From NCBI RefSeq assembly GCF_016901675.1, contig NZ_JACJKU010000009.1, forward strand, positions 1 through 34,022: a stretch of 34,022 nucleotides of DNA, given 5' to 3'. Shown here one piece after another: positions 986-2,740 of the stretch. Made by a program: the position numbers and the translations under genes. The notes under the pieces were generated by a model. The model was not told the origin of the DNA, made no database searches, and saw only the letters and a program-made list of their open reading frames with translations. The DNA is from Limosilactobacillus coleohominis. Lineage in GTDB: Bacteria; Bacillota; Bacilli; Lactobacillales; Lactobacillaceae. The first letter of the stretch is position 1; the number at the start of each line of letters is the position of its first letter.

Positions 986-2407
986 TTATTCAGCTGAAGT
1001 ATTAAGAATTGAACTAGAATTGTTATCTGCTTCAGGAGCTTTTGAATCTTGCCACTTTAGTCCAACACCAGTAAAACCACTCAAGATTGAGAAGACTGGT
1101 GAAAGGAGACTAAAGAAAGTAAATGGTAAGAAGTGAAGAACTGGAACGCCAAGGGTTGAAGCTACGAACGATCCGGCAACACCCCATGGAATAAGGTAGT
1201 TAATAACACTACCACCATCTTCCAGTACCCGGCTTAATGCTAATGGGGAAAGGCCAATTCGCTTGAAGGCGCTCCGGAAAGCATTACCTGGGAGAATTAC
1301 TGAAAGGTATTGTTCACCAACGAAGAGGTTCACGCCAATTCCTGCGAAAATAGTAGTGGTAATCAAGCGACCTGGTTGCTTCAAACGATCAATTAATGGC
1401 TTCATAGCATTTTCAATGATTCCTTCATGCATCAGGATACCACCAAGGGCTAGTGTCATGATGATTAAGGAAACGGTGCCCATCATGCTAGCAATTCCAC
1501 CACGACTGAGCAGTGCATCAACAGCTTTGTTACCTGTGTGGGCAACGAATCCTGATTCAATCAGTGTTGCGAGCTTCTTAACTGCAAAACCAGGAGTTTC
1601 AACGAAGATCATCACAATTGATACTAGAATGTTAAGGAAAAGTGTTGGGATTGCAGGTAGCTTCCGCCATGCACAAACGAACATCAAAATGATTGGTAAG
1701 GCTGCCCACCAGGAAACTGAGAAGTTACTGGTTAGTACTTCTGATGTTTTAGCAATGCTGTTAACACTAGCACCCTTGTTAGTGAATCCGAGAACTGCGA
1801 ATAGGATTAGTGAAACCAAGAACGCTGGAATAGTAGTCCACATCATGTTTTTGATGTGAGCAAAGAGGTCGGAACCCGCAACTGCAGAAGCCAAGTTAGT
1901 CGAATCTGACAGTGGGGACATCTTATCACCGAAGACTGCTCCGGAGATGATGGCACCAGCGGTTAATGCTGGGTTGATTCCAAGGGTAGTCCCCATTCCA
2001 AAGAGTGCTAATCCAACAGTTGAAACGGTGGTAAATCCACTTCCGATGGCTAGTCCAACCAGTGAACAAACCAGGGATACAGAAGGGACAAAGAATTGAG
2101 CGCTAATCAGATGGAAGCCTAAGACCATTAATGATGGGATAATTCCAGCTTTGATCCAAACTGCAATCAAGCTCCCAATGAGAAGGAAAATAAAGATTGG
2201 AACAATGGCAGTTGAGATTCCTTCAGTAATTCCGGCAGTGATTTCTTTCCAAGAAACCTTGCGGAAAGCTAACCAGGCCATCAGGAGTCCAATTACTGTT
2301 AAGACAGGAACTTGTGGGGAAAGACCCAGGCCAATAACGCCTACTCCTAAAATGACTAACATAATAATTAAGATTGAGACTGATTCGTTAAACCCGATTT
2401 TTTTCAT
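986..2407 (-). CDS. nhaC: NhaC-family Na+/H+ antiporter-type transporter, probable tyrosine transporter
   Basis: A 473-residue integral membrane protein with about 11 or 12 hydrophobic segments. It carries the NhaC-family signature around FGDKMSPLSDSTNLAS in the middle and a second conserved block near GGSVINYLIPWGVAGSF. The family exchanges Na+ and H+, and some members are predicted amino-acid carriers. The upstream leader is a T-box whose specifier I read as UAC (tyrosine). Tyr-T-box-controlled NhaC homologues (YheL type) have been predicted to be tyrosine transporters, so tyrosine import is my inference. The start is ATG 2407 (ribosome site GAGG, 8 bases away). An in-frame GTG at 2416 overlaps that site and is unlikely. 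The start codon overlaps the stop of a 30-codon upstream ORF (ATGA), suggesting translational coupling. Confidence 0.85.
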   Translation of the reverse strand: MKKIGFNESVSILIIMLVILGVGVIGLGLSPQVPVLTVIGLLMAWLAFRKVSWKEITAGITEGISTAIVPIFIFLLIGSLIAVWIKAGIIPSLMVLGFHLISAQFFVPSVSLVCSLVGLAIGSGFTTVSTVGLALFGMGTTLGINPALTAGAIISGAVFGDKMSPLSDSTNLASAVAGSDLFAHIKNMMWTTIPAFLVSLILFAVLGFTNKGASVNSIAKTSEVLTSNFSVSWWAALPIILMFVCAWRKLPAIPTLFLNILVSIVMIFVETPGFAVKKLATLIESGFVAHTGNKAVDALLSRGGIASMMGTVSLIIMTLALGGILMHEGIIENAMKPLIDRLKQPGRLITTTIFAGIGVNLFVGEQYLSVILPGNAFRSAFKRIGLSPLALSRVLEDGGSVINYLIPWGVAGSFVASTLGVPVLHFLPFTFFSLLSPVFSILSGFTGVGLKWQDSKAPEADNNSSSILNTSAE

Positions 2408-2496
2408 AATTGACACCTCATAGTTGAAAATTTAATTAATTGCTTTTGTGAGTTAGTTGAGAATAGATCGTGCAGACTATATCGTTTGATTTCCAT
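2404..2496 (-). CDS. 30-codon ORF translationally coupled to nhaC, unknown function
   Basis: Between the T-box terminator and nhaC, an ATG at 2496-2494 follows a strong ribosome site (GGAGG, 8 bases away). It opens a 30-codon frame starting MEIKRYSLHDLF. Its TGA stop overlaps the nhaC ATG as ATGA (2407-2404). I do not recognise the product. It has no obvious membrane segment and holds one tyrosine codon (codon 6). The layout suggests it helps ribosomes load onto nhaC. It might be a functional small protein, or a decayed N-terminal remnant. Confidence 0.5.
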   Translation of the reverse strand: MEIKRYSLHDLFSTNSQKQLIKFSTMRCQL

Positions 2497-2510
2497 ATTG
2501 AATTCCTCCA

Positions 2511-2740
2511 AATAAAAAAGTCCTGGGAGAGTATACAACTCAACCAGGACGTATTACCGCGGTACCACCTAGCTAGAAAGCTCTGAATGACTTTCCACCT
2601 CGTATTGGTTGCTAACGGTACCAATGGATCCGTACAAGCGGTAATTCGATTACATGTCCTGCCTGGTTTGCATCAACCACCAGTTTTCTGAACATTGAGA
2701 CGTGCAATCTACTGATTTGATTACTTGTAAAATTTGATTG
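2511..2740 (-). promoter_or_regulatory. T-box riboswitch leader, predicted specifier UAC (tyrosine)
   Basis: On the minus strand the conserved T-box sequence AGGTGGTACCGCG lies at 2570-2558. It is followed by a terminator stem (GTCCTGG paired with CCAGGAC) and a T run at 2550-2511. Upstream, the base of stem I pairs ACAAG with CTTGT. The 5' side of the specifier loop contains AGTAGA, and the 3' side reads CGAATTACCG. Aligned with known leaders, where GAA plus one base precedes the codon, the specifier is TAC at 2643-2641. T-boxes bind uncharged tRNA and then form the antiterminator, so the downstream transporter should be turned on when charged tRNA-Tyr runs low. The T-box itself is certain; the codon reading is an inference. 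Neighbouring readings would be TTA (Leu) or ACC (Thr). Confidence 0.92.

Follow-up and report, generated by a model that had tools for sequence, protein, structure and literature searches.

A putative tyrosine-keyed leader peptide downstream of the tyrosine T-box of nhaC in Lactobacillales, and its apparently diverged form in Limosilactobacillus coleohominis

In T-boxes in general, uncharged tRNA lets RNA polymerase pass a terminator. Translational attenuators of the ermC, cat-86 and secM type combine a leader peptide with a hairpin that hides the Shine–Dalgarno (SD) sequence, and the leader peptides of his, trp and pheA, with two or more regulatory codons each, control the termination of transcription. 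Termination-reinitiation coupling is known with ATGA overlaps. We analyzed a 34,022-nucleotide stretch of DNA from Limosilactobacillus coleohominis (the window, meaning that whole stretch), in which a short SD-led ORF lies between a T-box and the transporter gene nhaC. The arrangement resembles the ermC, cat-86 and secM systems in its short SD-led ORF, its potentially SD-hiding RNA and the predicted opening of that RNA by a ribosome on the leader. It differs from them in that the leader is stacked on a T-box and its cue would be the amino acid matching that T-box. The stop/start overlap in the window's group is like that of general ATGA coupling, but the upstream ORF appears here to be derived from a non-overlapping regulatory leader.

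NhaC transporters of lactobacilli are under tyrosine T-boxes (Wels et al. 2008, PMC2494555), and the window carries the same upstream element and gene that this work describes in lactobacilli and others. The passages concerned name no leader peptide, whereas here the leader forms a second, downstream element. As in the his, trp and pheA leaders treated in passages of PMC1183508, the regulatory codon specifies the amino acid to which the downstream gene relates, but here only one such codon, for Tyr, is present, within a conserved stretch of peptide. In the his leaders of bacilli, according to passages of PMC2965389, a leader peptide replaces the T-box, whereas the leader described here follows it. 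The T-box and the leader-peptide attenuator are alternatives in these passages of the literature, and here they stand in series on one gene, apparently for the same amino acid. Among the matches listed from open-licence PMC text, there was no description of a leader in series with a T-box on nhaC, and strings of the core peptide CGGhhRY, introduced below, gave zero matches in that text.

The interval between the T-box and nhaC

The features of the locus are collected in Table 1. A default Rfam scan of the whole window listed no T-box, because the T-box score of 62 lies below the RF00230 gathering score of 93. The empty scan was rejected as proof of absence, being overruled by the sub-threshold match to RF00230, which is full-length. 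The T-box assignment combines this covariance-model match (below the gathering score) with the T-box motif, a TAC specifier and a terminator, and the specifier context GAA-N-TAC/TAT recurs in 83 of the 88 distinct T-box sequences of the NhaC set described below. At one related locus, L018 (G034), the 450 nt preceding nhaC show no T-box motif. At another, L014 (G044), the specifier region reads GAATTCC, not GAA-N-TAC/TAT, with a Ser codon in the same register; its spacer is also without an Arg-Tyr leader, and a change of T-box specificity or decay is possible there. The nhaC product of the window passes TIGR00931 (392.3 bits, cut-off 370) and is probably a tyrosine transporter.

Table 1. Positions of the T-box, leader, pairing and nhaC features in the window
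Feature	Positions	Strand	Remarks
T-box leader RNA, RF00230	2542..2730	(-)	62 bits, E 3.3e-13, model positions 1-219
T-box specifier TAC (Tyr)	2641..2643	(-)	context GAA-T-TAC-C; read from sequence
T-box motif CTAGGTGGTACCGCG, antiterminator side	2558..2572	(-)	sequence and RF00230 match
Terminator	2514..2550	(-)	stem GTCCTGG / CCAGGAC, then T6; read from sequence
Leader ORF SD, GGAGG	2505..2509	(-)	8 nt from leader ATG
Leader ORF	2404..2496	(-)	30 codons, peptide MEIKRYSLHDLFSTNSQKQLIKFSTMRCQL; TGA overlaps nhaC start (ATGA)
Leader core codons AAA CGA TAT (Lys-Arg-Tyr)	2479..2487	(-)	Arg-Tyr conserved in relatives
TAT, presumed sensing codon	2479-2481	(-)	part of CGA TAT at 2479-2484
Helix 5' arm ATAGTCTGCAC	2470..2480	(-)	starts inside Tyr codon; consensus fold
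nhaC SD, GAGGTG	2414..2419	(-)	6 nt from nhaC ATG
Helix 3' arm GTGTCAATTAT	2406..2416	(-)	part of nhaC SD and AT of start codon
nhaC, NhaC-family transporter	986..2407	(-)	473 aa, 2 Tyr; TIGR00931 match

Read from 2496 to 2404, the leader ORF runs ATG GAA ATC AAA CGA TAT AGT CTG CAC ... CAA TTA TGA, and its TGA (2406-2404) shares bases with the nhaC ATG (2407-2405) in the sequence ATGA (2404-2407). The sequence bears out the original prediction of an SD-led ORF that lies between the T-box terminator and nhaC and stops on the nhaC start. The nhaC ribosome site, which had been called modest and given as GAGG, proved to be a better one, GAGGTG at a spacing of 6 nt. A stop this close to the next start is what termination-reinitiation coupling calls for, and ATGA is also present in four relatives. 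The overlap by itself was ruled out as strong evidence: the window's segment after the Tyr codon is open to ATGA in 28% of shuffles and those of the four relatives in 42–62%, the segments being stop-poor. Conservation in the four relatives (L002/L031, L003/L032, L004/L033 and L005/L110) is stronger evidence than an overlap that shuffles often give. They share the SD, the ATG, Arg-Tyr and the overlap, and their ATG-to-ATG distances of 89, 86, 80 and 89 nt (89 nt in the window) all preserve the frame. The alikeness within this group resides mainly in the first nine codons (xxx-R-Y-x-x-H) and the overlap.

To compare the interval more widely, the region from the T-box to nhaC was examined without any peptide motif in an NhaC locus set of 110, made up of 30 same-genus loci (49 of 50 genomes matched) and 80 named loci, the best of 98. 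L018 and L109, which have no T-box motif, were left out, and merging identical regions among the remaining 108 loci gave 86. The gap length in these 86 sampled distinct regions is bimodal, with 62 regions of 71–137 nt and 24 of 146–183 nt. An SD-led ORF with Arg-Tyr was found in none of the 62 short-gap regions and in 22 of the 24 long-gap regions; the exceptions are L014, which has no such ORF, and L035 (MKKAYQSK). The 22 leaders comprise eight with Arg-Tyr but no CGG, which is the window's kind, 13 CGGhhRY leaders and a single FGGIVRY. Among the named carriers are Limosilactobacillus pontis, oris, frumenti and portuensis, as well as Ligilactobacillus agilis, murinus and salivarius. Relatives that have the T-box and nhaC but lack the leader, which the original prediction had named as evidence against it, do occur (62 of 86 regions, including many from Limosilactobacillus), and these 62 have the short gap. 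The conservation of frame and overlap that it had proposed to look for was found, together with SD and ATG, in the four relatives. Where the gap has room, such a peptide is nearly always present.

These data bear on two simpler readings of the ORF. If it were a chance ORF or an RNA-only spacer without a translated function, the many related loci without a leader, the lack of conservation of the window's peptide past codon 9 and the weakening of its helix (see below) would be understandable. The four nearest relatives nevertheless retain SD, ATG, Arg-Tyr and frame, and nearly all long-gap regions have an SD-led Arg-Tyr ORF at this place, which makes this reading very improbable. The ORF had also been proposed to be either a coupling device or a small protein that accompanies the transporter; the data support the idea of a translational device and not that of the small protein. 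The good SD and ATG make translation likely, but there is little likeness past codon 9, on which ground a small protein working with NhaC was ruled out. The wider family, moreover, often has leaders of just 9–16 residues, and no hydrophobic segment is visible by eye in the window's peptide, so that we find this proposal hardly credible. In NCBIfam, the window's peptide had only an attC-repeat match below the cut-off, and three other leader peptides had no match.

A leader family in the Lactobacillales

The CGGhhRY family was defined in this analysis and searched for with a DNA pattern for C-G-G-h-h-R-Y. Within the genus, the pattern occurs in 12 of 50 genomes, in 11 of the 12 directly before nhaC. 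In the Lactobacillaceae it occurs in 43 of 396 genomes; 37 of the 43 matches stand directly before an NhaC-family gene, spanning 9 of 40 genera (read from the table), and a T-box motif precedes 36 of these 37 by simple match. The order search returned 45 of 395 genomes, with 37 matches outside the Lactobacillaceae, 33 of them before NhaC and 31 of the 33 preceded by a T-box motif (simple match). A reversed-pattern control hit 5 genomes in the Lactobacillaceae search and 11 in the order search (table counts). The six family matches not before NhaC (G005 = L112/L158, L133, L134, L143, L144 and L145) were taken as chance, and so were the four such order matches (L181, L182, L183 and L198), which all belong to one further family; no T-box motif was found upstream of these matches (6/43 and 4/37). 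Class-wide, the pattern was present in 33 of 398 genomes compared with about 40 for the reversed pattern. Since this is no excess over the control, no family is claimed outside the Lactobacillales. Among the 30 class-wide loci retrieved, a T-box motif precedes the pattern only in Lactobacillales (L164 and L214-L216), and none was found upstream of the retrieved matches outside this order.

Among the 73 distinct CGG-type leaders, both Gly codons use all four synonyms and the 21-nt core exists in 55 versions, so that the peptide seems to be selected and not the RNA alone. The hydrophobic positions are occupied by I, L, V or M and never by F. The stop directly follows Tyr in 7 of the 73 leaders and lies 14–59 nt upstream of nhaC in 69; in the wider family the shortest leader has 9 residues, and leaders may end at Tyr. 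At L141 and L142, a 42-codon leader frame extends 40 nt beyond the nhaC start chosen by the script, which is another form of overlap. At L175 (G507), the leader MNCGGVIRYFFFFRTAIN is followed by an nhaC frame that is open for just 82 codons, and this nhaC looks broken in its genome. CGGhhRY resembles no arrest motif known to us, and it may itself be an arrest peptide.

Such an arrest could, in principle, respond to a signal other than Tyr-tRNA, such as free tyrosine, an antibiotic, or a metal or thiol acting through the Cys, with the window's form as a decayed relic. In favour of this, the conservation of Cys-Gly-Gly-h-h-Arg goes beyond what one hungry Tyr codon would need, seven leaders finish at Tyr-stop, and Cys is replaced only once, by Phe, among the 14 CGG-kind leaders of the motif-free set. 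On the other hand, tyrosine is the simplest cue, given that a Tyr T-box controls the gene and that the conserved part of the peptide ends with Tyr; a switch turned on by high free Tyr would also work against the T-box, which is on when Tyr is low. We therefore regard a non-Tyr-tRNA signal as improbable. The single Phe-bearing leader (L015/L045, MQDFGGIVRYLKRA) is a natural Cys variant.

The codons of the leaders also depart from those of the genes behind them. The leader Tyr codon is TAT in 80 of 81 distinct leaders, compared with 51 of the 254 Tyr codons of the nhaC genes that follow. Elsewhere, TAT accounts for 12 of 218 Tyr codons in leaderless nhaC, 26 of 81 in ten NhaC paralogues and 153 of 317 in the window's ORFs of at least 200 codons. 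CGA serves in 50 of 81 leaders, and 45 of the 376 CGN codons of the nhaC genes behind them are CGA, the CGG-class counts being out of CGN only because the search pattern fixes CGN for Arg. In an enterobacterial leader assay, CGA was a slow Arg codon, and UAU and UAC behaved alike in the context shown (passages of PMC4046918), so that a slower UAU is not established. The preference for TAT and CGA may come partly from RNA pairing. A single regulatory codon gave low sensitivity in a model of transcriptional attenuation (passages of PMC1183508), which is one reason to think that the CGGhhR chain sharpens the pause. The NhaC proteins under T-boxes are poor in Tyr, with set means of 2.1–3.3 and a range of 1–7 (2 of 473 residues in the window), and the ten paralogues (L227-L236), with no T-box motif in the retrieved stretch, have 5–12. 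The sequences behind these codon and Tyr counts are related, so the counts are not independent events. Such paucity is what one would expect of a protein made under tyrosine shortage, and it looks like cognate amino-acid avoidance, fitting a role in tyrosine uptake.

The window's leader is an SD-led short ORF between T-box and nhaC that has Arg-Tyr encoded by CGA TAT, as the family features would have it, and it shares with seven other leaders the presence of Arg-Tyr, the absence of CGGhh and, in all eight, the codon TAT. These eight KRY leaders group on a single branch (SH-aLRT 92) of the NhaC tree, which comprises 150 proteins, was built by a quick method with a midpoint root and contains several long branches. 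The tree excludes L105 and L109 as well as identical proteins and those shorter than 350 aa; L015, L045 and L035 carry hand-assigned group labels. Near the KRY branch lie the leaderless L009, L014 and L034, and also L035. Within the clade, the ATGA overlap is confined to the five coleohominis-group sequences (L001-L005), and the leaders of L006-L008 stop 32–34 nt upstream of nhaC. Because the window lacks CGGhh, we class it as a diverged relative of the CGGhhRY family rather than one of its members, and its leader belongs to no named leader family among those compared. It looks like a diverged copy of a conserved leader peptide of many lactic acid bacteria, and we are highly confident that it is a translated leader related to the CGGhhRY family.

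Potential RNA pairing at the nhaC start and its modelled opening

Consensus folding of the five coleohominis-group sequences produced, unprompted, a helix of 10 pairs, three of them with two-sided changes, in which the RNA from the AU of the Tyr codon to CAC is paired with the nhaC SD and the AT of the start codon. The window retains nine of the ten pairs, two as G-U, and folding of the window as a single sequence did not favour this helix. In leaders of other families, a hairpin often begins right after Tyr, and its 3' arm contains or adjoins the nhaC SD, as in L168 (CTCTTTTTTAGG opposite CTTAAAAAAGGAGA). An alignment of 13 leaders of these families gave a helix over the nhaC SD but no two-sided changes. 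In a duplex test, for which the nhaC starts of L123 and L129 were assigned by hand to an earlier ATG than the script's, the scores were modest: the mean z was −0.76 for 43 Lactobacillaceae leaders against −0.11 for the control arm, and −1.47 against −0.45 for the eight KRY leaders; the window itself scored −0.34.

The effect of a ribosome on this pairing was modelled with a footprint of −13 to +16 around the P site and with shuffled post-Tyr segments as the control. L163, for which the script found no nhaC start, and identical regions were dropped from the 81-leader set, and 30 distinct leaders represented families other than the Lactobacillaceae. In these 30, opening the free nhaC SD costs 5.06 kcal/mol on average, and a ribosome with Tyr in its A site lowers this cost by 4.03 kcal/mol, compared with 0.54 in shuffles; in 23 of the 30, the real fall is matched by no more than 5 of 100 shuffles. 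The fall is 1.57, 2.22 and 3.96 when the ribosome is three, two and one codons before this position, and the cost rises by 0.7–1.1 when the P site lies 18–27 nt upstream of Arg, near the start codon. From one codon before Tyr-in-A-site, the effect forms a plateau, which reaches about 24 nt past that position in the other families and about 33 nt past it in the KRY leaders. The geometry thus points to a ribosome at or beyond Tyr, with no preference for the Tyr codon itself. The KRY clade shows a fall of 2.58 versus 0.10 in shuffles, with three of eight leaders at the level of at most 5 of 100 shuffles and seven of eight at that of at most 10 of 100. The Lactobacillaceae CGG leaders show a weak fall (1.07 versus 0.22; 12 of 43 at the 5 of 100 level). 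The window is the exception within its clade, with a modelled fall of zero (3.0 free and 3.0 with a ribosome at Tyr), equalled by 34 of 100 shuffles. On this modelling, the post-Tyr RNA is able to sequester the nhaC SD, and a ribosome that has reached Tyr or moved beyond it frees the site.

Taking the conserved peptide and its place before nhaC, the codon bias, the pairing potential and the paucity of Tyr in NhaC together, we lean towards the view that the leaders of this family act as Tyr-keyed attenuators of translation, stacked behind a Tyr T-box, and we infer the following course of events. Uncharged tRNA-Tyr would let RNA polymerase past the T-box terminator at this locus, and the strong SD would begin leader translation on the read-through mRNA. 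The RNA after the Arg-Tyr codons would pair with the nhaC SD and start, keeping nhaC closed; when Tyr-tRNA is scarce, the ribosome would wait at the Tyr codon and cover the pairing RNA, leaving nhaC open. In the typical form, the nascent CGGhhR chain would perhaps add to the hesitation at Tyr. As most frames stop soon after Tyr, 14–59 nt before nhaC, a lasting opening would need such a wait. Several of the results run against this attenuator: the zero opening effect in the window, the weak one in the Lactobacillaceae CGG leaders, the low duplex scores of those leaders and of the window, the lack of two-sided changes in the 13-leader alignment, the plateau past Tyr and the 62 of 86 regions without any such leader. 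The low sensitivity of a single codon (passages of PMC1183508) and the likeness of UAU to UAC (passages of PMC4046918) weigh on the same side.

The main competing account is pure translational coupling, in which the leader does no sensing and only delivers ribosomes to the nhaC start, by ATGA reinitiation or by opening the helix. In its favour are the frame and the ATGA overlap common to all five sequences of the window's group, an SD-hiding helix in the window too weak for a Tyr switch in the model, a modelled opening that is equal for ribosomes beyond Tyr, and the ATGA overlap also present in L164, from another family. Yet leaders that do not have the overlap retain Arg-Tyr and TAT, and the overlap alone arises as readily in shuffles as described above. 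Because the 69 of 73 CGG-type leaders end well before nhaC, overlap reinitiation cannot be the function that the leaders share, and we consider pure coupling unlikely. The coupling proposed in the original prediction survives in part; that prediction mentioned neither the Tyr codon nor a leader family across the order, nor that the nhaC SD might be paired.

Under the Tyr-keyed attenuator, the window's group would represent a derived state in which CGGhh is gone and the frame crosses both helix arms to the nhaC start. The translating ribosome itself would then open the helix and restart on nhaC at the ATGA, that is, by termination-reinitiation coupling, with Tyr sensing as at most a residual input. 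Since the modelled opening is absent in the window, ATGA coupling is probably dominant there and now probably carries most of the effect in the window's species. The natural series of leaders, from typical through CGG-less to absent, may illustrate how a regulatory peptide becomes plain translational coupling.

A bolder proposal, which we put forward tentatively and with some doubt, joins four parts: CGGhhRY as a new ribosome arrest class in at least five Lactobacillales families, a nascent chain that would render a single Tyr codon hypersensitive to Tyr-tRNA, an AND gate, and a decay to ATGA coupling in the window's group. If true, the gate would allow the transporter to be made only after RNA polymerase and, in turn, the ribosome had both read the same Tyr shortage. 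The leaders are short, conserved at the peptide level and easily testable, and may hold a new arrest motif. At one locus, L196 (G526), the leader is preceded by two T-box motifs, which lie 303 and 84 nt ahead of its core, and a tandem T-box followed by a leader is possible there.
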